DNA of 64,000 nt from Boswellia sacra. Taxonomy: Eukaryota; Streptophyta; Magnoliopsida; Sapindales; Burseraceae. Numbering within the stretch: the stretch's first letter is position 1; every line of letters starts with the position of its first letter. Shown here piece after piece: positions 19,447 to 42,908 of this stretch. The notes beneath the pieces were generated by a model, which worked only from the letters and a program-made list of their open reading frames with translations, did no database searches and was not told the DNA's origin. The position numbers were made by a program, and so were the translations under genes. The stretch is taken from positions 62,001-126,000 of the forward strand of contig SNVD02013686.1 in assembly GCA_013180625.2 (NCBI GenBank), given 5' to 3'.

Positions 19447-20247
19447 TTAAAGAGAATATGAGAATATAATACCACATGACTGAGCCCATAAGCAATTATG
19501 AGTGCACATCAAAGCTTCCAATGTCTTTGAATGTAGTCTGCTACGATGGGGACTTAAATGCCTACCACTCGTACTAAATGTAGACTCATAAGCCACAGTA
19601 GAAACTGGAATAGACAAAATATCTTTTGCAATTTCAGCCAACAAAGGATATTTGCCTTCATTTGTCTTCCACTAACTCAAAATATCAAAATGGCCACTAG
19701 TGTGCTTCAAACATTGTTTCTCCAAATACAAATCTAACTCAGACTTAGTAACTGTATTACTAGTACAACCAATGTATGATTGATGCTCTAAGTTGGACTC
19801 AAAAGTCATATCTTCCAACCCACCACTCGTAGGAACCTCACTTGCTAATGACTCATCTTGTTCACCTACACCTATAGTGGCAACTGTAAGTTTGTATTCC
19901 TCTACTAAGTCATAAACAATGTCTTTGACATCTCTAACATACTCTAAAGCATTGTCTCCATAAATTTTTGGAAAGAAAAATGTGATCAATTGCATTTTAT
20001 ATCTTAGATCCAAGATAGTAGCCACTGCCAAAACACCATGAATGACCTCCCAGTACTTTTCAAATTTTTCTATCATTGATGCCATTTCTCTTATTTTAGA
20101 ATGAGGAGAATCACACCATTTAGTCAATGTCAATCTCAAGTCACAAATAAAAGCAAAAAACAAGTTGGAAGTGGGATATCTTGTACTTGAAAACACTTGG
20201 GTCACTTTATAGAAATACTTTAAATGGTCACACATCAACCTTGCTAA
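19447..20247 (-). pseudogene. hAT transposase, C-terminal half
   Basis: The minus-strand frames 20238-19672 and 19644-19447 form the C-terminal part of an Ac/RICESLEEPER-like transposase. The first carries the KFEKYWEVIHGVLAVATILDLRYKM segment (conserved as KxxKYW...VLDPRxK in the family), and the second the dimerisation end with IPVSTVAYESTFSTSGR and LHSKTLEALMC. A stop at 19672-19674 separates the two, so the protein is broken. The N-terminal half is 9.2 kb away at 29474-30878, separated by the gypsy insertion. A short exon-like frame follows at 19281-19475. The gene belongs to the surrounding hAT element. Confidence 0.85.
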
Positions 20248-20252
20248 CTCCC
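20248..20252. repeat. Gypsy target duplication, left copy
   Basis: CTCCC, identical to 29469-29473. A 5-bp duplication is normal for gypsy integration. Confidence 0.93.
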
Positions 20253-21666
20253 TGATGCGTTCGAAACTAGCAAGTATACTGGTCGCACAAGTAATAAAGT
20301 GATGAGTAAGATATCGTTCCCACGAGGATTGATTCTAATTGAATTTGTTATTCGAAAGCAACAATAAACTAAATGAGGGGGGTTTTGCTGATTGATTAAC
20401 TAGATGAAATATTAATGCAAGTAAAGAATAACACAATGCAAATTTAAACAGATTGAAAAATCAATGAGAGAAACATGGTTAAGGGATCCTTCTCTACCAC
20501 AAGATATGGATTTGCGAATTAATCATAGAATTGTCATCCAATTACACCATTGAAATTATCAACCGTAGATAACAACAAGCTCTGTTATCCCAATCTTTCC
20601 TTACTTTGTTGTTAAATAAAACAGGCTCTTTATTTAATCTCTATCCATTAAACAACCTAGAACAAGCTCTCTAATTTTAATTCAATGGATGCTTTACGAT
20701 AAGAAAGATAGGTTGATCTAAGCAATAAACACACAAGCTCGGATTATTTAACTTAGGTTGAATTCTCCAATTGCAATCTCTGATCACAATTTTGCTACTA
20801 AGGATTAGAAATTCAAGACAATTACGGATCAAGATTTCTAGTCTAGCAATAGACAACAACCAAATTATATTCAGTTGGCCATTCCAAATACAATCCAGCA
20901 AGCAATCATAAGCATTAAACATGGGAAAATACAAGCAACTTCAATTAGAGAATTGGATAACAATTCCTTGCACAATCAACTTACAAAAACCATATCAGGG
21001 GCTTTGAAATCACCCTCAACCAATTCAGATTCAGTTACACATGTTTAAGAACGTGGTAAATACAATACAACATGGAGACATTCCAGAAAATGAAAGGGAA
21101 GGGAAAAACTTAGCAAATTTGATGTAATTCTCTTTGGATTGTAGTTCTTCCTCTTTCCAAGCTTCCTTTCTCCTTCAAGAACTCAAGGAGATGAAAGAAT
21201 TCCAGAGCTGCAGCCTCCACCACGTTCTCCCCTCTTCAAGTTATCAAAATAAAACCCTAAAATGTGTTTAAATACTCTGCTACAGTAACCTGCTACAGTG
21301 TCCCGTATTATACATGCTACAGTGATTTGTGGAATTACATTTCTATACTTCTCACACTGTTTTGATTACAACTTTTGGTACACTGAATGGATTTATAAAC
21401 CGTAAATTTCTCCAGAAAATAGACTTCGAGAGCTTTCCAACGGTATATAATATGTCATCGGGTTCATTGTATATCAATACAATTAAATCCGAGAATATGG
21501 TTGACTAGCAGCGGTGAAAATGAAGGGTTTTACTCCATTTTTGTGCAAGTTGCTCTAAAACTCCTACAAATATCAAAACCACACAAAAACATAAAAATAC
21601 CAAGGAATATAGTAAAGAACGATGGACGAATTAATATGAAAATGATATATAATTAGACACCTATCA
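20253..21666 (-). repeat. 3' LTR of the gypsy element
   Basis: 1,414 bp; on the minus strand it runs from TGATAGGTGTCTAATTATAT to CGAACGCATCA. It aligns with 28056-29468 along its whole length. Tracts of GCTACAGT-type words (21280-21325) lie near a TATTTAAACAC that could serve as TATA box. Frame 20677-20934 is repeated in the other LTR and is not a gene. Confidence 0.95.
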
Positions 21667-21681
21667 AATTCCCCCACACTT
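21667..21681 (-). promoter_or_regulatory. Gypsy polypurine tract
   Basis: On the minus strand AAGTGTGGGGGAATT lies directly before the LTR start TGATAG. Similar GTGTGGGGG words at 22270 and 22400 are secondary copies, a habit of Athila/Tat elements. Confidence 0.85.
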
Positions 21682-22466
21682 AAACTTTACTAGTCCTTAA
21701 GCAAGTACAACGATATGAAACAAAACTAAACCAAAACAGAGTCAAAGAAAAATTAAAACACACAAATGCTTCAACTTGCAAATAGGCCTCAAAGATTGTA
21801 CTTAATTATAACCCAAGAAAAACTTCAAAATAATGCACTTGATCAAGAATTTCATCTCAAAGATTAGTTTCGCTTCACTTCAATTCCTCAAGTGTGTGTG
21901 TGTAGAGCCATTCTCACCTAATCACTTGTAACCCGGATGAGTTTATGCATAAAAATGAATCATATTTAATATTGAAGATGTGTGTATAAATGAACTCCAT
22001 AGGCCTGCTTTTCAAGTCACTCTCCACTAATGTAGACATGCACAACACCAAGGATCAAGTAGGACTTTATTAAGCTTGTAACGTTTGGCTTGGGTGAAGG
22101 TATGATAAAGGATAATAATTTGGCTCAAATCACCCACAAACACATAAATCATTCAAGACTATGTAGAGCTCAACCCTATAACACACCTTTATTTCAATTC
22201 ACCAAGTTACTTCCCCAAACTTATTTAGAACACTCAATCTTTTTTTTTTTTGGAGAAAACAAAAAGAAAACTACACCCCCACACTTTGTTGTTTCATTCT
22301 TTTTAAGAACACTTAAGGGTATAGATCTCTTATTCTTCTTCTTTTGTTCTCTTTTTTTCATTTTTTTTCATTTTTTCTTTTTTTTATTACACTTCCCCTC
22401 CCCCACACTTAAACAGCACATTGTCCCCAATGTGTAAGTATGTGGACAATAAGTACAGATTGGCTT

Positions 22467-22497
<31 letters not shown>

Positions 22498-23700
22498 AAA
22501 CACAATAGAACTCACTTGCATTGCTCATGACACATCCCAACCTTCTCTAACTTCCCAAAACCAGAACATAGCTCAAAATTTAATTGTGAATGATCTACAT
22601 GCTCATAGGTAAGGGATAAACTGTTTGGAACAAATTCATTTGAGGTTAGGAAATCTTTTAGTGAGTTAACAAAGAAAAGGCTTACAGAGGCTCAAAGGGG
22701 TAACTAGGGATCAATTTCTGTCAAGGTTGGCTATTAAGGCTCAAACGGTCCAAAGATGGCCTAACTCATTTCCCCAATGTTGCACAGCCTAGGATTTCGC
22801 CTTGAGTGACCATCAAACAAGTTCTAGAATTCATTGAAATCTGAAGAAACATTTAAATTACATAAACTTTCCTAAGTGAACAAATAACTCAGTGATAATA
22901 GCTCAGTGCTCAATGTTGCGCAAGGAATCAAAAGCAAAGCGAAAACCAATAAACATTTCAAGCCCACAGATCCATGCATCATTTATCATTTTCCAAGAGT
23001 TATTCTTAATTCAATCATTATCTTATCATCGACCCACAAAATGCAAGAAAAGAGGTACGTTGCGTTGTTACACCTGAGTCAAGATTGTATATTTCAACAA
23101 TCCTTAGGACCAGTAGCCCGCAGACTTAAGGTTTCCAGCCTATATACCTTTATTATGAAAGAACAAAACAAGAAACAAGACACTGCAGACAACATGAAAT
23201 AAACAAACTACAGATTTATTTAGAGAGAATGCGTTTCAAGAGTTAAGGAAACCCCATATTCTGCCATTCTCAGTTTTTCCACAATGTTTTTTTTTTTCGA
23301 ATCGAAACTGATAAAGACAAAAACACACAACAACTCTAAATTACACAAAACTAAACTTACTCATAAAATAACAAAGTCCAACAAGCCAGCAAACAAAAAC
23401 AAGTCAGTTAGAATGGGTCTAAAAAGTTTAGAAGTTGGCCTCCTTATTCAGCCATTATGGATTGAAGAGATCCAGAATGCATTTCAAGAGGAATTAAACT
23501 TTTTAAGCCACCACTCTAAAAGCCATGATTAGAAAATATTACCTGGGGCAAAAGAAATAACCTGAAAAAAAACTCAAAAGAAATGACATGAAAAATCTCA
23601 AATAAACACACTCAAAAGAAAGTAAACAAAAACGAAGCAAACCAATAGATAGAGATTACAGATGGAGCGTTAAATCCAGTTTACGCCTCTTATTGCCTTC
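21682..23700 (-). other. 3' noncoding region of gypsy element
   Basis: About 2 kb between the LOG-like frame and the polypurine tract, with long A/T tracts. It includes the minus-strand phrase CACATTGGGGACAATGTG followed by CTGTTTAAGTGTGGGGG (about 22399-22433), a hallmark of the 3' region of Athila/Tat elements. Plus-strand frames here (22090-22437, 22421-22612, 22892-23202, 23284-23532) are low-complexity and antisense to the element. I see no gene. Confidence 0.7.
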
Positions 23701-24306
23701 TCAAAACCAATCTATCCGAGATATTGTTGGATCAGGCGAATAGACGAATGCTTGTAATTTGTCAATTAACTCCCCTGCAGTTGAAGTTGTAACCAGGATT
23801 TGCCTCACTGACTGTGAGATGAAGTTTTTTTCTACTGCTTGATCAAGAAAAGACAACAAACCATCAAAAAAATTATTGACATTTAACAAACCAATGGGTT
23901 TCAGATGGAAGTTTAGCTGTGCCCAAGAGGTGATTTGAAATATCTCCTCTAATGTACCATAACCACCAGGTAAAGCTATAAATGCATCGGACTTAACAAC
24001 CATATGTGCAATACGCTCAGGCATGCTAGAGACCTGTAACTCTTCCCTGATTGTATTGCCTACGATATCTCGTACAGCTAATGGTTTAGGGATAATGACG
24101 AGAACTTTGCTCCCTCCTAGGGATGCAGCTGTTGACACACACCCTATTAACCCAAGACTACCCCCTCCATAAATCAAATGAATACCCCTCGCAGCTAATG
24201 TCCTACCAAGATCAAGAGCTACTGTTGTAAACTCTCCATCTTTACCAAATTGCGATCCACAAAATACGCATATATTTTGGAGTCGCCAAATTGGTGTTTT
24301 CTCCAT
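23701..24306 (-). CDS. LOG-like cytokinin phosphoribohydrolase
   Basis: An intact 201-codon, intron-free frame. LOG enzymes cleave ribose 5'-phosphate from cytokinin nucleotides to release active cytokinin bases in the cytosol. Visible motifs are: ICVFCGSQFG near the N-terminus (residues 12-21), YGGGSLGLIG (46-55), Arg98 in MPERIAHM, and the signature PGGYGTLEE (113-121) with its catalytic Glu. The Lys usually following the Arg is Ile here. The length is near the 190-240 residues normal for the family. Ordinary LOG genes have several introns, so the unbroken frame suggests a processed copy. It lies in the sense strand of a gypsy element lacking most of pol. Tandem G-box repeats lie 250-390 bases upstream. 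The frame could still be transcribed from the LTR or from those repeats; expression is unknown. Confidence 0.85.
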   Translation of the reverse strand: MEKTPIWRLQNICVFCGSQFGKDGEFTTVALDLGRTLAARGIHLIYGGGSLGLIGCVSTAASLGGSKVLVIIPKPLAVRDIVGNTIREELQVSSMPERIAHMVVKSDAFIALPGGYGTLEEIFQITSWAQLNFHLKPIGLLNVNNFFDGLLSFLDQAVEKNFISQSVRQILVTTSTAGELIDKLQAFVYSPDPTISRIDWF

Positions 24307-24517
24307 TTCTACAAGTGCTCTAACCTTGTGTAAGACAATGATGCACGTTAGGTAATATGCTTTTCAAGTGCAAGATAGGTTATAATAATGAAATTTGAAA
24401 ATATGGAGAATGGATATATACACACGTAAAACTCTCAAATTTGACACATGGGGACATAATTTCGGTGGGGTTGCTCGATGCAGATTTATCGCCCCAAGAT
24501 TTGAAAAAATGAGATAT

Positions 24518-24705
24518 GCTTTCGGCGGGGTTTGACAAAACCTACACACTTGTCTCCCACGTGAAGCATGAAAAATGGAAATACACTTTCGGCGGGGTTT
24601 GACAAAACCGCCACACTTGTCTCCCACGTGAAGCATGAAAAGTAGAGATATACTTTCGGTGGAGGTTGACAAAACCTCCACACTTGTCTCCCACGTGTAC
24701 TTATG
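24518..24705. repeat. Three 67-bp repeats with G-boxes
   Basis: Three tandem copies with a 67-bp period. Each contains TTCGG(C/T)GG, TTGACAAAACC, a TTGTCTCCC word and CACGTG. The CACGTG palindromes are at 24558-24563, 24625-24630 and 24692-24697. G-boxes bind bZIP and bHLH factors in plant promoters. The array lies upstream of the LOG-like frame in its transcriptional direction. Overlapping frames at 24364-24849 are translations of the repeat. Regulatory action is inference. Confidence 0.85.
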
Positions 24706-25033
24706 CCATAGGGTGGTCATATGGTTTGTCAAGAAGAAAACTTGAAATTGAAAAAAAACAAAATCAACAAACAACAACAACACGAAAACAACATTGATAA
24801 TCAGATCAAACGAAACAAGAAAAAAAATAAAATTCGACAACAACAACACACATTCAAATATACAAGTAGTTGTGATTGTGGCTCACATCGTCCTCTGGGT
24901 TTACGTCCAGTAACGGCTGAAACGCCTTCTATGAGTCGGGGATTTGCTTCCCATCCATTTTTCTTATAAACTGGCAAATAGGGTCGTTTTTAGTCAGATT
25001 CCCTAGACTATAACACTGCAATTCATCACGAAA

Positions 25034-25508
25034 TTATGTCCATAGATTAAGCAATTCACGCTGAACAAGTCCACAAGAATGTGACTCAAGAGTTAATAAA
25101 ACATTATCCAACGACTCATTACTCAGAACATTCTTAATAAATGAGAGTTTATCTTCTCTATTCCTGGACACAAAACCTAATGAACGACAAGTCTGGTTAC
25201 AATTCCATCTAGCACATTTATAACATACTTGTAACCTTTTTGCTCTTCGCCCCTTGGCGTAGTAGCTTTTCCCTAGACCAGGCATGTATTTTGCGAGATT
25301 AATGTCAGTCTCACCGGACAATCTTACCTTGGCTTCGATAAACCATCGGATATCCGTAGGCACATTTCGGAGCATCAATGCCCAAAGTCTAGTCATCCGT
25401 ACTTTATAAATTTTAAACACAGCATTTTGAGGAAGTGAAGGGAAATATTTACGAAGGTTTGACACAAAGATATCGGCATCTATTGAAGAGGAGAAAATGA
25501 GAGCTATT
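25034..25508 (-). CDS. Unidentified Cys-rich frame in gypsy element
   Basis: A 143-codon frame (25465-25034) that stays open further upstream to about 25540 without an ATG. It is basic and has a compact Cys cluster, CYKCARWNCNQTC (about residues 81-93), giving C-x2-C-x4-C-x3-C, preceded by a KGRRAKR basic patch. I do not recognise a family. It does not look like gag, protease, RT or integrase. A zinc-binding nucleic-acid role is conceivable from the Cys pattern and basic patch alone. It sits between the pol breakpoint and the LOG-like frame, in the same sense. It may be a second captured host-gene piece or a lineage-specific extra ORF. A further open stretch at about 25510-25620 (KRELKSLLEGLKRAYF) may be an upstream exon. 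Confidence 0.45.
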
Positions 25509-25887
25509 ACCGATAATGCAATTGAGTTTGTTTTTCTCTAAAATATGCACGTTTCAAACCTTCGAGCAATGACTTCAGCTCCCGTTTGGATGTTTCCTCA
25601 AGCTGTTGCACACATGAATTTGAAGTACGGAATAATCAAATTAAACAAAGGGAAAGAAAAGAAAAGAGCAGAAACGAAACTAAAGACACATAAAAGAGAT
25701 AACAACACAATAGCAAACAAAAGTCAAAAAAAAGTAAAAAATATAAAAACAAATGAGACAGATGGCAAAGAGAGATAAAACCTGATCAATTTGATGGCCT
25801 ATGAAAGAAACCTCCTCGAGACAAAAAAATCGATCATTATTACCTCATTTTATTTTTCTTTTCTTCTTTTTTTTATTTTTCAAAAAC

Positions 25888-25936
25888 ATTGGGTTGCCTC
25901 CCAATAAGCGCTTGGTTTAACGTCCTCAGCCCGACG
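25888..25936 (-). other. Athila/Tat 3'-UTR signature at deletion joint
   Basis: On the minus strand the sequence passes from pol codons (PPMMEP) into GTCGGGCTGAGGACG, TTAAACCAAGCGCTTATTGG and GAGGCAACCCAA. Intact Athila/Tat elements carry this GGGAGGCAACCC motif after the integrase stop codon. Finding it directly after the start of RT marks a deletion of about the whole RT-RNase H-integrase region. Confidence 0.7.
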
Positions 25937-26679
25937 TTGGTTCCATCATGGGAGGGTCCAATCTCCGCTGTGCTTCTCTAGTGGGCTTGGATCCTTTTTT
26001 CAATAAGAATTGGTGCATGCATATGGCTGGGCCTTGGATGTTAGCAATCGTCCACCCAATAGCTATTTTGTGATCTGTAAGTATTCGGACAAGTTTCTCT
26101 TCTTGTATTCGTGCAAGGCCCATTTCCATTGTAATTGGCAAAGTATCATTCTCACCCAAGAATCCATGATTCAAATGATCTGACAGTGACTTAAGCTCCA
26201 AGGTATTGGCTTTTGTCACAGAAGGAAGAAGTTTCTCATTAGATAAAGTAAATTGAATGTACGAAACATCATTATTTGTGGTTATTGCTATGGTCTCATC
26301 TAAGCTTGCCACAGCTTCCTCCATTTCTTTGGATACTTGTATCAAAATTCCTGACTCATTGGAATTTTTTGTCCCTATGTGCTCACTAATAGCTACATCT
26401 AATCCATTCTTGCGAGTTAACTCAAAATATTGTTGTGGCAAAGAATCAACAATGTCAACTGCAAAAACAGAATGTAAGTCACTAGAGTACCTCATTGCCT
26501 CAAAAATATTGAAACATATCACCTTGCCATCAAACTCTATGATGAGAGTGCCATCATGAACATCAATCATGGTTCTAACAGTTTTCGAGAATGGTCTCCC
26601 TAAAAGAATCGGAGTTAGATTAGGAGATGTCTCATCCTCTATTTCAAGGACATAGAAGTTTGCTGGGAAACCAATTGAT
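25926..26679 (-). pseudogene. Gypsy protease end and RT start
   Basis: Frame 26570-25926 and the preceding 110 bases carry TPILLGRPF and IDVHDGTLIIEFDGK (protease C-terminal side), then GFLGENDTLPI, KIAIGWTIANIQGP, CMHQFLL and PTREAQRRLDPPMME, the conserved entry into Athila/Tat reverse transcriptase. It stops before any catalytic RT motif. One frame change lies between this and the upstream gag-protease frame. The element's RT, RNase H and integrase are absent. Confidence 0.85.
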
Positions 26680-27960
26680 TCACCTGCACAAGCACATCTT
26701 CCACAACTCTTTTGGGATATGCATTAAAATGATCAGCAAGTTGAATGGTAATACCAGTTTTCGCAAAAGGTCCAAATTTAAAGAAGCATAAATAGAATAT
26801 GGCATGACATTAATAGATGCTTCTAAATCTAACATAGCTCTTTCAAACTTGGTTTTACCAATCGTGCATGGAATGGTGATCGTACCTGGATTATTGCATT
26901 TCGGAGGAATTTTTCTTTGTAGTATAGCTGAAACATTTTCTCCTGCACTTACTTTCTCATTCCCTTTTAATTTTCTCTTACTGGTGCATAACTCCTTGAG
27001 ACATTTTGTATAACAAGGTACTTGCTCGGTAGCATACAGAAGTGGTATATTTATCTTGATTTTACGAGAAGTTTCCAGGATTTCTTGTTTTTGTTCCTCC
27101 TTCTTCAATTTTGTCAATCTGCTGGGAAAAAGTAGAGGAGTAACATAAGAAGGAATAGCAGTTTTAAGACTTACCTTAGAGGATGATGTCTTGTTCATGG
27201 TGGAAGTGGTGTCATCTTCTTCATCAGTTTGTGATTTCTTTGGCAGGACATCTAATTGCTCTCCATTTTGCAAAGTTATCGCACAACAATTCTCTCTTGG
27301 ATTGATGACCGTTTGACAAGATAATTCTTCTGAGCCTTGGCCCTCGAATTTGCTCATGCTAGTGGCCAATTGTCCCATTTGATTTGCCAGGTTTTGGATA
27401 CTTGCCCCAGTTTCCTGCTGGAATTGCATTGTGTTAGTGGCAAGTGCATTAACAATATCCTGGAGTGACATACCTAAGTTTTCTGAAACTGGTTGTGGTG
27501 TTGGTTGTGGCATTGGTGGTGGTTGCATTTGAAAAGGTTGCTGCACTCTAAGTTGATTAAAACCTTGTTGCCAATTCGGTATGCCAGTTGGGGCGATTGG
27601 TTGATGATTCCCGTAACTAAAATTGGGATGATCTATCCATCCGGCATTGTAAGTATTAGAGAAGGGATCATACCATTGCCTTGATTGTCCTGGAAATCCA
27701 CCCATGGAATTGGCTTGTTCCATATCTTCTTCTTGTAAAGTTGGAGACATGTCCATTGGATGCTCCATGGTAGAATATACCCCACATGCATAAGATTTCT
27801 ACATATCTCCTACGGCCATGTTTTCCACAAGAGAAGTTAGCTCAGAAAGTTGTTGTTCAATGTTCTGAGTGCTTACCTCATTTACACTCCAATGTAATTA
27901 TGGCTCAAATCGGCTACTGAATTGTTGAAAGTTTACTGTCATGTTGCCTAAACACAAACA
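26680..27960 (-). pseudogene. Gypsy gag C-terminus and protease
   Basis: The 362-codon frame 27768-26680 has a Pro/Gln-rich gag C-terminus (GGFPGQSRQWYDPFSNTYNAGW) and then a retropepsin region with MLDLEASINVMPYSIYASL. The catalytic Asp is present, but the usual DLGAS has become DLEAS. Upstream, 27960-27769 adds QLSELTSLVENMAV and a decayed zinc-knuckle stretch, with stops. The N-terminal two thirds of gag are missing between here and the primer site at 28037, so packaging could not be self-provided. Confidence 0.85.
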
Positions 27961-28034
27961 ATCAGAAAAGAAAAACAAAAAAAATACCAATTAACAATGA
28001 AAACAAAATAACAAATCGATTAGAAAATCAATCC

Positions 28035-28052
28035 CCGGCAACGGCGCCAAAA
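28035..28052 (-). promoter_or_regulatory. Gypsy primer-binding site, tRNA-Asp type
   Basis: On the minus strand TGGCGCCGTTGCCGGGGA follows the LTR after four bases (TTTT region). It is complementary to the 3' end of plant tRNA-Asp, the primer used by Athila/Tat elements. Confidence 0.9.
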
Positions 28053-28055
28053 ACT

Positions 28056-29468
28056 TGATGCGTTCGAAACTAGCAAGTATACTAGTCGCACAAGTAATAA
28101 AGTGATAGTAAGATATCGTTCCCACGAGGATTGATTCTAATTGAATTTGTTATTCGAAAGCAACAATAAACTAAATGAGGGGGGTTTTGCTGATTGATTA
28201 ACTAGATGAAATATTAATGCAAGTAAAGAATAACACAATGCAAATTTAAACAGATTGAAAAATCAATGAGAGAAACCTGGTTAAGGGATCCTTCTCTACC
28301 GCAAGATATGGATTTGTGAATTAATCATAGAATTGTCATCCAATTACACCATTGAAATTATCAACCGTAGATAACAACAAGCTCTGTTATCCCAATCTTT
28401 CCTTACTTTGTTGTTAAATAAAACAGGCTCTTTATTTAATCTCTATCCATTAAACAACCTAGAACAAGCTCTCTAAATTTAATTCAATGGATGCATTACG
28501 ATAAGAAAGATAGGTTGATCTAAGCAATAAACACACAAGCTCGGATTATTTAACTTAGGTTGTATTCTCCAATTGCAATCTCTGATCACAATTTTGCTAC
28601 TAAGGATTAGAAATTCAAGACAATTACGGATCAAGATTTCTAGTCTAGCAATAGACAACAACCAGATTATATTCAGTTGGCCATTCGAAATACAATCCAG
28701 CAAGCAATCATAAGCATTAGATATAGGAAAATACAAGCAAATTCAATTAGAGAATTGGATAACAACTTCTTGCACAATCAACTTACAAAAACCATATCAG
28801 GGGCTTTGAAATCACCCTCAACCAATTCAGATTCAGTTACACATGTTTAAGAACGTGGTAAATACAATACAACATGGAGACATTCCAGAAAATGAAAGGG
28901 AAGGGAAAAACTTAGCAAATTTGATGTAATTCTCTTTGGATTGTAGTTCTTCCTCTTTCAAAGCTTCCTTTCTCCTTCAAGAACTCCAAGAGATGAAAGA
29001 ATTCCAGAGCTGCAGCCTCCACCACGTTCTCCCCTCTTCAAGTTATGAAAATAAAACCCTAAAATGTGTTTAAATACTCTGCTACAGTAACCTGCTACAG
29101 TGTCCCGTATTATACATGCTACAGTGATTTGTGGAATTACATTTCTATACTTCTCACACTGTTTTGATTACAACTTTTGGTACACTGAATGGATTTATAA
29201 ACCGTAAATTTCTCCAGAAAATAGACTTCGAGAGCTTTCCAACGGTATATAATATGTCATCGGGTTCATTGTATATCAATACAATTAAATCCGAGAAGAT
29301 GGTTGACTAGCAGAGGTGAAAATGAAGGGTTTTACTCCATTTTTGTGCAAGTTGCTCCAAAACTCCTACAAATATCAAAACCACACAAAAACATAAAAAT
29401 ACCAAGGAATATAGCAAAGAAACATGGACAAATTAATATGAAAATGATATATAATTAGACGCCTATCA
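28056..29468 (-). repeat. 5' LTR of the gypsy element
   Basis: 1,413 bp, aligned with 20253-21666. Differences are scattered substitutions and a one-base indel (GATGAGTAAG against GATAGTAAG). It is followed by the second CTCCC duplication at 29469-29473. Frame 28479-28736 is the LTR twin of 20677-20934. Confidence 0.95.
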
Positions 29469-29473
29469 CTCCC

Positions 29474-39806: not shown

Positions 39807-40465
39807 TGTTGGACACTCAAGATTGTGAAAAACTCAAGCTTTAAGTTTATTTCAACAATACAATTGTAAAATACAATCAAAACTCACTCACTCTCACAAA
39901 TTTCACTCACTCAAAAAAACTTACACTTACACCCACACACACCTTTCCTTTATTATTTTCTTCTCTCCCTCTTTGGTTTCTTGCTTGCTCTCACACACCT
40001 GCTCCAAGTGATGCCCTCTATTTATAGTCTTCATGGTTAGTTAGGTGCCTTTCATTTTTTACTCTTTCTTGCACTTGTTACACATGAATGGTTGGTGAAG
40101 AATTCATCTAGAATGGTAGGCTTCTAGATGGACGGTGGAGGAGTTATTATTATTATTTTTTTTTGTAACCGAGGTGTCGGGCTAGCTTACGCGCACCACA
40201 ACTAATCCTCGTGGGAGACTAGCGTGACCACAACCCACTATCACAATCCCCTGCTTACCTTATGGAGAAAGACTATTGTGAAGAGTCGAACCCAGGACTT
40301 CACCATTGGCCTTACCAACTCCCTCCTGGGTCGTCCTTACCACTTGAACCAACCCATTATGGGTGGAGGAGTTATTTTCACATAGGAGAGTTCACATGGA
40401 AGATGAAAAACATGTATAAATGATGGTGTGCTTCTAGATATACAAATAAGGTTTAATATTCAACA
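39807..40465 (-). repeat. 3' LTR of the copia element, with SINE
   Basis: About 430 bp of LTR plus the SINE and its duplication. On the minus strand it keeps a good TATA box, CTATAAATAGAGGG (about 40013-40028). The matching site in the other LTR is mutated (CTATCAGTATAGGG). It is preceded on the minus strand by the polypurine tract GTTCAAGGGGGGA at 40466-40478. Confidence 0.93.
40149..40361 (-). mobile_element. tRNA-derived SINE
   Basis: A 213-bp insertion in the copia 3' LTR. On the minus strand it starts near CCATAATGGGTTGG, has a pol III A box TGGTTCAAGTGGTAAGG (40335-40351) and B box GGTTCGACTC (about 40283-40292), and ends in an A-rich tail followed by TAATAATAA. The target duplication GGTGGAGGAGTTATT is exact (40134-40148, 40362-40376). 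The other LTR keeps the empty site (about 48784-48798), which proves the boundaries. Confidence 0.95.
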
Positions 40466-40948
40466 TCCCCCCTTGAACTTTATTTGTGAAACCAAGAAAA
40501 TTTCTAATTCTTGTAAAATCTTCATGCTTTAGTGGCTTGGTAAAAACGTCCACTACTTGATCAAGAGACTTCACATTCTTCAATTTCACATCTTTTCTTG
40601 TGATACAATCTCTAATGAAGTGATTACGTGTGTCTATATGCTTGCTTCTATCAGGGAAGACTGGATTCTTTGCCAATGTAATCGCCGATTTGTTATCAAC
40701 ACAAATTTTAATGGGTTCCTCCTTTGGTGTGCTCAACTCCTTCAACAAGCTTCTAAGCCAAATTGCATGACAAACACAAGATGTAGCAGCCACATACTCG
40801 GCTTTACAAATGGAGAGTGTTACAATCGGTTGCTTTTTTGACATCCAAGTAAATATGGTATTGCCTAGGGAGAAAACAAATCCACCTGTGCTCTTTCTAT
40901 CTTCTATATCTCTAGCCCAATCACTATCATTATATCCAACAAGCTTGA
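40466..40948 (-). pseudogene. Copia RNase H
   Basis: The frame reads KLVGYNDSDWARD, DRKSTGGFVFSLG, FTWMSKKQPIVTLSICKAEY, VDNKSAITLAKNP and HIDTRNHFIRD, the ordered landmarks of copia RNase H with the DSDWA, KAEY and DNKSA acidic residues. It ends near the LTR with FLGFTNKVQGG. Frame 40994-40434 begins in the hAT insertion, so its first residues are not copia. The join to RT is broken by that insertion at 40949. Confidence 0.9.
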
Positions 40949-41679
40949 TAGGGTTGGCAATGGGCGGGGTGGGTCTGGGGTAGCTAGTACCCAACCCCGC
41001 CTTGCCCCATTACCTCTTAAAAGGGTGGGGCGGGGCAGGGCAAAAAATAAATGAGCAGATCCAGACCCGCCCCTCCCCTGTAAAATTCACATTTTGTAAA
41101 TTAAAAACCCCATTCTATTTTCCCATCATATCATATAGAAGTATACAATTAAGACCATTTTTTAATAATCATAAAGACAATATATTTTCAAACTAAATCA
41201 TACATATGCACAACAATCAACAACTAAAAAACCATCATTCCATTCAAAATCTAAAATTTCCAAGTAAACAATAATTCAACAAACAATACCAAGTTACCAA
41301 CAAACAAAATCAACAAGTACGTGGGGCCAACAATATTAAACACATCAAAGTAAACAACTCAAAACAATAAAAACATATCAATACCAACATAATAACAAGT
41401 AAATAAAAATAATGTCAACATTTTAACGAAACCAAACCAACAAGTTGATAGCACACAAGAACAACTTCCTACATTCAACACTCTAATGAAACAACCTCAC
41501 AAATATATCACTGAACTTCCTCCTTCTTCATCCAATGTTTCCTCTCCAACCATCTCTTCTTGAGGAATTACACCTAGAAACATATAATAACCAAATTAAT
41601 AACTAAACAAGGAAATTAAATAAAAGTAATAATAATCAATAAAATAAACATAGTATATTGAAACTTATACCTCGCGTTT

Positions 41680-42908
41680 TTAGCCATAACCAATTTTGGG
41701 TACACATTAATGCCTCTAATGTGTTAGGAAGAAGTCTACTATGATGTGAACTCAAAACTCTACCGTTTGTGCTAAAAGCGGATTCAGTGGAACTGTGGAA
41801 ACTGGGATAGCCGAAACATCTCTAGCAATAGTGGACAATATAGGAAACTTACTTTTATTCATCTTTTACCAAAGCAAAACATCAAAGTCAGGACCACTAA
41901 CTACATGATCCTCAAAATAAATATCAAGCTTAGACTTCTTTTGCAATCCCATATTAGTGCTTTCTTTAAATTTTTCATACTCAATATCAAACTCACTTGA
42001 TGCACTGTCTCCTGTAACACCTTCTGGATTTGGTAAATTTGTAACAAGTTCCCTTGACTCATTACCCAAACCAAGTTTACATTGATAATCTATCACCAAG
42101 TCTTCACAAAGAGTACGTACTTCCTCAATATGCTTAAAAGCACCATCTCCATAAATCTTCTTGTATACAAACTCTACTATTACCATTTTACATCTACGAT
42201 CTAAAACCACATCCATAGCTAACACTTCATGGATACCATTCCAATACTTTTTAAACTTTTCAATCATTGCATTAGCCATTTCCTGAATCTTTTTAAAAGG
42301 AGCATAAGCCAAGAGCTCAAAGATAATCTTAACTCACCAGTTTTTGGAAAAAAACTTGTTTTCTGTGGGATAATTTGTTCTAGAAAATATTTCAGTTAAC
42401 CTATAGAACTTTTCCAAATGATCACACACAAGTTTTGCTACTGCCCACTCCTCTTCCTTAGGCAAATCTATATATCTATATATTGACTATCACACTTCTT
42501 CAAATGAACAAACACATCTTTATAGGTCAAAGTTGTACTCAAGATCTTATAAGTAGAGTTCCACCTAGTTTTACAATCAAAAGACAATGTCTTATTAAAT
42601 GTCACTTTCAAGTGACGTGTATTCTCCTCAAACCTTTCCATTCTCTTAGGTGTAGATGTCCAAAAAGCAACAATTTCGCTAACCTTCTCAATGCCATTTC
42701 CTATCACTTCTAACCTATCTTTAACTATTAGGTTCAATATATGAGCACAACACCACATGAAAAAAAGTTTCCCACGCAACATCAAATCCCTATTACCCAA
42801 TTTATCAAGTATTTGCTTTATCATAGCATCATTGGTAGAACAATTATCTACAGTTAAAGTAGATAATTTCCTTTCCAAATTCAAATCATACAACCAATCA
42901 ACCAACAC
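41680..42908 (-). pseudogene. hAT transposase of the inner element
   Basis: Frames 42908-42468 and 42312-41866 plus broken pieces to 41680. Visible are LTVDNCSTNDAMI, KLFFMWCCAHILNLIVKDRLEVI, DCKTRWNSTY, KFKKYWNGIHEVLAMDVVLDRR and, at the end, IARDVSAIPVSTV with TLEALMCTQNW in a shifted frame. These are the central and dimerisation parts of an Ac/RICESLEEPER-like transposase. No BED finger is present. It is related to the transposase of the large hAT at 19447-30878 but clearly diverged. Confidence 0.85.

Follow-up and report, generated by a model that had tools for sequence, protein, structure and literature searches.

A young, non-autonomous and probably Athila-like retrotransposon copy in Boswellia sacra with NABP-like and LOG-like extra open reading frames

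Our analysis of a 64,000-nucleotide stretch of Boswellia sacra DNA (assembly GCA_013180625.2, contig SNVD02013686.1, positions 62,001 to 126,000 of the forward strand; hereafter, the window) identifies a long terminal repeat (LTR) retrotransposon at window positions 20253-29468, with its sense strand on the minus strand. We read this element, with a probability of roughly 70%, as a young, non-autonomous copy of an Athila-like Ty3/gypsy lineage having two extra open reading frames (ORFs) in sense orientation between pol and the 3′ LTR: an ORF resembling the nucleic-acid-binding, cysteine-rich proteins (NABPs) of betaflexiviruses, followed by an ORF resembling the LONELY GUY (LOG) family of cytokinin-activating enzymes. 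In particular, the lineage has probably long carried the NABP-like ORF as an extra gene under selection, and LOG is probably present downstream of this ORF in some members. The evidence comprises the anatomy of the element, the homology of the two ORFs, a second contig on which an integrase is followed by an intact NABP ORF, and a low ratio of nonsynonymous to synonymous divergence (dN/dS) between the two NABP copies. A preliminary description of the same DNA had taken LOG to be the only acquired gene of the element; the adjoining virus-type NABP ORF corrects this.

The NABP-like ORF lies on the sense-upstream side of the LOG-like ORF, in a retroelement and not in a betaflexivirus genome. The open part of the ORF (Table 1) matches Viral_NABP with 35.8 bits (E 1.1e-8; cut-off 23), and Carla_C4 scores 22.9 bits (cut-off 20.9), such that the window copy passes both Pfam gathering scores. 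Alignments of four relatives by tblastn cover 25474-24935 (one of them from 25468) and run across one stop, and no in-frame ATG is present from the preceding stop to the aligned start. The absence of a start codon and the presence of the internal stop indicate that the window copy is broken. The encoded protein has a basic stretch and a C-x2-C-x4-C-x3-C finger, the four cysteines of which are at least 90% conserved in an alignment of 56 family rows.

The NABP family is large and its named members are from plants. In one search, 25 of 32 candidates proved to be relatives, a named copy from Striga among them, and a profile search gave 1084 relatives among 4198 candidates. Among the best 120 of these, which were listed, the named relatives are from Populus x canadensis (a cluster of 36), Xanthoceras (47), Acer (15), Populus alba, and Rhamnella. 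The NABP alignment found no relative in IMG/VR and no match in a plasmid collection, and a sequence search of the PDB gave no meaningful match (one hit, E 1.9). It is possible, although we lean against it, that the likeness to the viral proteins is convergent, the family being a small basic zinc-finger protein of retroelement origin, or that viruses took their proteins from plants or retroelements. The modest scores of the window copy, a Carla_C4 score just below the cut-off in the second element described below, the lack of an IMG/VR viral record, and the lack of a named viral protein among the matches listed would all fit this alternative. Against it, two separate viral families, Viral_NABP and Carla_C4, match all 17 aligned members of the NABP family at E<=1e-3, and the Viral_NABP match extends over about 80 residues, beyond the finger alone.

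A scan of GTDB contigs with 27 pattern matches yielded one NABP relative, on a contig of 3330 bases (DAIEQH010000041.1; hereafter, L001). L001 is filed under a Nomurabacteria metagenome-assembled genome and, judging from its content, is probably a plant retroelement contaminant. It contains an integrase frame that ends at 1594 (PF00665, E 2.4e-16; PF17921, E 1.4e-12) and, 192 nucleotides past that frame, an intact NABP ORF at 1787-2347 (186 amino acids; P0129). The L001 ORF scores 33.9 bits for Viral_NABP (cut-off 23) and just misses Carla_C4 (20.8 vs 20.9). DNA similarity between the window and L001 spans L001 1991-2438 at 78%, and identity in 50-column bins at and after the end of the NABP ORF is 83-92%, above that in most of the ORF, marking a conserved non-coding block directly 3′ of the ORF (Table 1). 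Neither this block nor either of two further stretches gave a single-sequence fold better than those of shuffled sequences (z -0.53, -1.08, and -0.56). It is highly improbable that the NABP-like ORF is a fragment of an endogenous RNA virus that landed in the element by chance: such insertions exist, for example a betaflexivirus-like replicase in cucumber according to the available part of PMC3136472, but no further virus gene was recognised beside NABP in the ORFs of the element, and the same ORF lies behind the integrase of L001, with common downstream DNA.

Comparison of the window and L001 NABP ORFs over 179 codons gives pN 0.229 and pS 0.603, corresponding to dN 0.273 and dS 1.224. The resulting dN/dS is 0.22 (bootstrap 0.12-0.35), and the differences at codon positions 1, 2, and 3 number 53, 36, and 77, respectively. 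Constraint on the NABP family is likely on this comparison, and its strength is rough because dS is near saturation and because the window copy, once broken, could decay freely. The alternative of passenger status for the two extra ORFs, which the machinery of the element would copy without benefit to the element while they decay, is unlikely. Both ORFs of this copy carry stops, and the available text of PMC6317226 calls extra ORFs highly divergent and questions whether they are functional, in agreement with that alternative; the dN/dS value, the intact ORF in L001, and a length of exactly 182 amino acids in 71 of 128 fetched NABP relatives argue against it.

The LOG-like frame is full-length, intronless, and in sense orientation in the element. 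It matches TIGR00730 with 158.7 bits (cut-off 96.35; E 1.2e-46), also matches Lysine_decarbox, and contains the motif PGGYGTLEE, in accordance with the PGGxGTxxE pattern of the fold family; its score for the NCBIfam LOG equivalog NF058542 is 108.8 bits, below the cut-off of 300. The nearest solved relative is Arabidopsis At2g37210 (49% identity over 193 residues), which we take to be LOG3. After codon 201, the frame has a stop, then 14 in-frame codons, EGNKRRKLDLTLHL, that match the tail of its relatives, and then a second stop. Three of four LOG relatives aligned by tblastn extend through this tail to 23659. The sense orientation and the 201 codons reported in the preliminary description stand, but the frame is not intact, because the stop after codon 201 cuts off the conserved tail.

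The search for LOG relatives passed 7686 of 8000 scored candidates, of which the best 120 were listed. Within these 120, an LxLxL C-terminal end is present in 93 (with a pattern that tolerates one extra last residue), a basic run ahead of that end in 90, and PGGxGTxEE in 101. We take the basic, LxLxL-ending tails to resemble nuclear signals and EAR repression motifs. An EAR-like tail, as found in most of the listed relatives, is unusual for a metabolic enzyme. Reevesia, Diplodiscus, Xanthoceras, and Populus account for many separate copies among the matches listed. A tree of 117 of the 120 (3 were left out for length), in which element-borne relatives were not distinguished from others, groups the window frame with P0003 and P0009 (support 0.87). 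The LOG alignment gave one match in IMG/VR (L002, 28%).

Among the matches listed, identity of the window frame to its nearest relatives does not exceed 71%. With this value as the best, and 49% identity to the presumed LOG3, none of the LOG genes in the searched database is a recent source of the frame. These values run counter to the earlier proposal of a recent private capture, in which a young pol-deleted element would have taken up a cellular LOG mRNA and nothing else. An intronless sense frame within an element having LTRs 2% diverged is what such a capture would leave, but the second extra ORF and the occurrence of LOG in gypsy elements of other plants also speak against it, and we regard it as improbable. 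A separate LOG retrocopy inside the element is likewise unlikely, a target duplication or poly-A tail of its own being not evident on reading the sequence, with no test dedicated to it.

The preliminary description had also known of no other LTR element carrying the gene of a cytokinin-activating enzyme. Steinbauerova et al. in 2011 reportedly described two Athila-like elements with similarity to LOGL4. The available part of PMC9289625, with reference to Steinbauerova et al. 2011, reports the YgdH domain, which it equates with the LONELY GUY family, in gypsy consensuses from two Citrus species (C. sinensis and C. clementina) and, when the filter of that paper is omitted, from P. trichocarpa. 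Because YgdH/LOG has been published for Citrus and Populus elements, LOG in a gypsy element is not new.

In L001, LOG is absent from the 983 bases after NABP: tblastn with three LOG relatives gave nothing beyond 13-residue scraps (best E 0.032). The window and L001 each contain the word CAGGTAATAT a single time, and the distance from the conserved block to this word is 1.29 kb in the window, where the interval contains the repeats and LOG, vs 98 bases in L001. The difference in interval fits LOG as a downstream addition, and a loss of LOG in L001 is equally possible. Equal contig sizes elsewhere hint, at most, at NABP-LOG linkage. Specifically, the longest contig is 8723 bases for both LOG relative P0005 and NABP relative P0121, and 2128 bases for both P0016 and P0127. 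Shared longest-contig values under 20 kb number six vs 3.6 expected by chance (P 0.15), and shared values of at least 2 kb number two vs 0.2 expected (P 0.016). We rejected equal-sized contigs as proof of linkage.

The anatomy of the element is that of an LTR retrotransposon, with TG...CA LTR ends, a target site duplication (TSD), a primer binding site, and a polypurine tract (Table 1). Over 1413 aligned columns, the LTRs show 27 mismatches (14 transitions and 13 transversions) and one internal gap, giving a Kimura two-parameter (K2P) distance of 0.0194 and bearing out the difference of about 2% that had been estimated by eye. Assuming 7e-9 to 1.5e-8 substitutions per site per year, the insertion is 1.4 to 0.65 million years old. 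The perfect CTCCC duplications described before were found on both flanks, and the primer site and polypurine tract were both located; the primer site is of presumed tRNA-Asp type, and no tRNA gene to match against it is present in the 64,000-nucleotide window. Removal of the element together with one CTCCC joins the flanks into a single open frame of 246 amino acids that includes a hAT RNase-H-fold part, indicating that the whole unit inserted at once. The host of the element is a hAT transposase gene (window 19672-20235 and 29474 onward, minus strand), the frame of which is open across the empty site.

Only 451 bases separate the end of the PPMMEP frame (25926) from the NABP-like ORF (25474). 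This distance is too short for reverse transcriptase (RT), RNase H, and integrase, indicating that pol is deleted in this copy. In agreement with the earlier report that these domains are missing, a retroelement RNase-H-tail/integrase ORF used as query gave no match in the window (best E 8.6). The copy does not have the gag-pol of an autonomous element. No Pfam family matches 25926-27798, where the putative gag/protease identity comes from reading the sequence. A stretch at about 25885-25945 is presumably the "3′-UTR signature" of the preliminary description.

The Athila-like Ty3/gypsy assignment is suggested by the primer site, the TSD, the position of the extra ORFs, and sequence motifs. The primer, which we take to be a non-chromovirus type (tRNA-Asp), the 5-bp TSD, and the forward extra ORF on the 3′ side fit Tat as well as Athila. 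These criteria follow the available part of PMC6317226, in which a non-chromovirus primer is an Ala, Arg, Asp, Lys, or Trp tRNA.

Table 1. Features of the element and its insertion site, in window coordinates
Feature	Position	Strand	Remarks
Target site duplication CTCCC	20248..20252	.	3′ side of the element in element sense
3′ LTR, 1414 bp	20253..21666	-	LTR-LTR alignment; blastn 98.0% vs the other LTR
Polypurine tract GTGTGGGGGAATT	21667..21679	-	abuts the 3′ LTR
3′-region motif ACATTGGGGACAATG...TTTAAGTGTGGGGG	22400..22441	-	weak match to L001 2567-2607 (76% over 42 columns, E 0.62)
LOG-like (TIGR00730/Lysine_decarbox) ORF	23659..24306	-	open 23701-24306 (201 codons), in-frame stop, conserved tail to 23659
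Tandem repeat, 67-bp unit, 2.9 copies	24505..24697	-	between the NABP-like and LOG-like ORFs
Conserved non-coding block, directly 3′ of the NABP ORF	24837..24934	-	counterpart L001 2348-2438
Betaflexivirus NABP-like ORF (Viral_NABP/Carla_C4), full-length	24935..25474	-	start ATG absent, one internal stop; open part 25034-25396
Putative gag/protease remnant	25926..27798	-	two overlapping frames, 26680-27798 and 25926-26723; by reading
Primer binding site TGGCGCCGTTGCCGGGGA	28032..28049	-	six bases from the 5′ LTR; presumed tRNA-Asp type
5′ LTR, 1413 bp	28056..29468	-	LTR-LTR alignment
Target site duplication CTCCC	29469..29473	.	opposite flank of the element

The remaining features lie inside and outside the element. 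The 67-bp tandem repeat holds CACGTG-like and TTTCGGCGGGGTTTGACAAAACC stretches and may be a promoter or a spacer. A long non-coding stretch is located between the LOG-like ORF and the polypurine tract. Rfam gave no match in 21600-28100. Elsewhere in the window, a copia-type RNase H remnant at 40434-41009 and a second hAT-like fragment at 41866-42333, both on the minus strand, were noted by reading only.

Several points weigh against the reading of an Athila-like lineage with an old NABP gene and a downstream LOG. The roles of NABP and LOG are predictions from sequence. The RT from which a phylogeny would place the element is deleted in this copy, and the Athila placement is provisional. That NABP and LOG share a contig elsewhere is no more than a suggestion from the equal contig sizes. 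On one side, the LOG interval is delimited by a word of 10 bases, and a weak match of L001 3026-3099 to window 22762-22689 is out of order, indicating that the 3′ region is not simply collinear with L001. The dN/dS value is rough, since a dS of 1.2 is near saturation and two DNA copies only were compared. For LOG, this copy alone is available as DNA.

In our proposal, selection has maintained the NABP ORF as a long-standing resident of the lineage, and the encoded protein may bind nucleic acid in the nucleus, weaken RNA silencing, or both. The cysteine-rich protein of the carlavirus potato virus M (PVM) suppresses intracellular silencing and the spread of silencing, according to the available part of PMC10219291; if the retroelement NABP family shares this activity, the element RNA would be shielded. 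LOG would be a later downstream gain, or else a gene that the L001 type has lost. An intact LOG could release active cytokinin, or could act through its tail as a nuclear, repressor-recruiting protein, and its action might favour dividing cells, where the element has access to the germ line. The present copy would be a helper-dependent relic of the lineage, moving only with help from another element because pol is lost. The cis signals are complete, in keeping with the earlier suggestion that a helper could mobilise the copy and spread a hormone gene, but spread of a complete family-type LOG is not expected, because both extra ORFs carry stops.

More broadly, and tentatively, at somewhat below even odds, a eudicot-wide retrotransposon lineage may have kept a virus-type silencing-suppressor gene under selection, and part of the lineage may have added a cytokinin-activating or nuclear LOG. 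The two genes would then form a counter-defence and hormone cassette, possibly a source or a sink of genes for RNA viruses. If the NABP-like protein does suppress silencing, retrotransposons would carry a dedicated counter, of an RNA-virus protein type, to the main plant defence against such elements. In that case, whether retroelements and RNA viruses exchange genes, and whether transposons exploit hormones, becomes directly testable. The size of the NABP family (1084 matches) also affects annotation: plant genes of this kind annotated as "hypothetical proteins" or "LOG-like" may belong to retroelements. The searches made of open-licence PMC papers gave no report of a conserved NABP-type gene in retrotransposons.

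The element can be compared with several known systems. Maize Bs1, a non-autonomous element of copia-type size, is an LTR element with a cellular gene, as is the present element, and the gene differs. The Athila-like gypsy elements with LOG/YgdH extra ORFs are closer, combining Ty3/gypsy and a LOG-family domain as here; the available part of PMC9289625 mentions no NABP-like neighbour for the published elements, and in the present copy pol is absent and LOG is cut short. Gypsy elements of Phalaenopsis with an AlkB m6A demethylase carry an extra ORF of a kind also found in plant RNA viruses, again as here, and this ORF has been proposed to meet host surveillance (PMC9289625, in the part available). 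The AlkB domain is a different one and was assayed in vitro, whereas the NABP-like protein is known from its sequence. The carlavirus cysteine-rich and nucleic-acid-binding proteins (PF05515 and PF01623, including the PVM protein in the available part of PMC10219291) share with the NABP-like protein a basic stretch and a C4 finger. Unlike those viral proteins, which are encoded at the 3′ end of an RNA genome, the NABP-like proteins form a 182-amino-acid plant family that is chromosomal and located behind an integrase, of which the window copy is a broken member.

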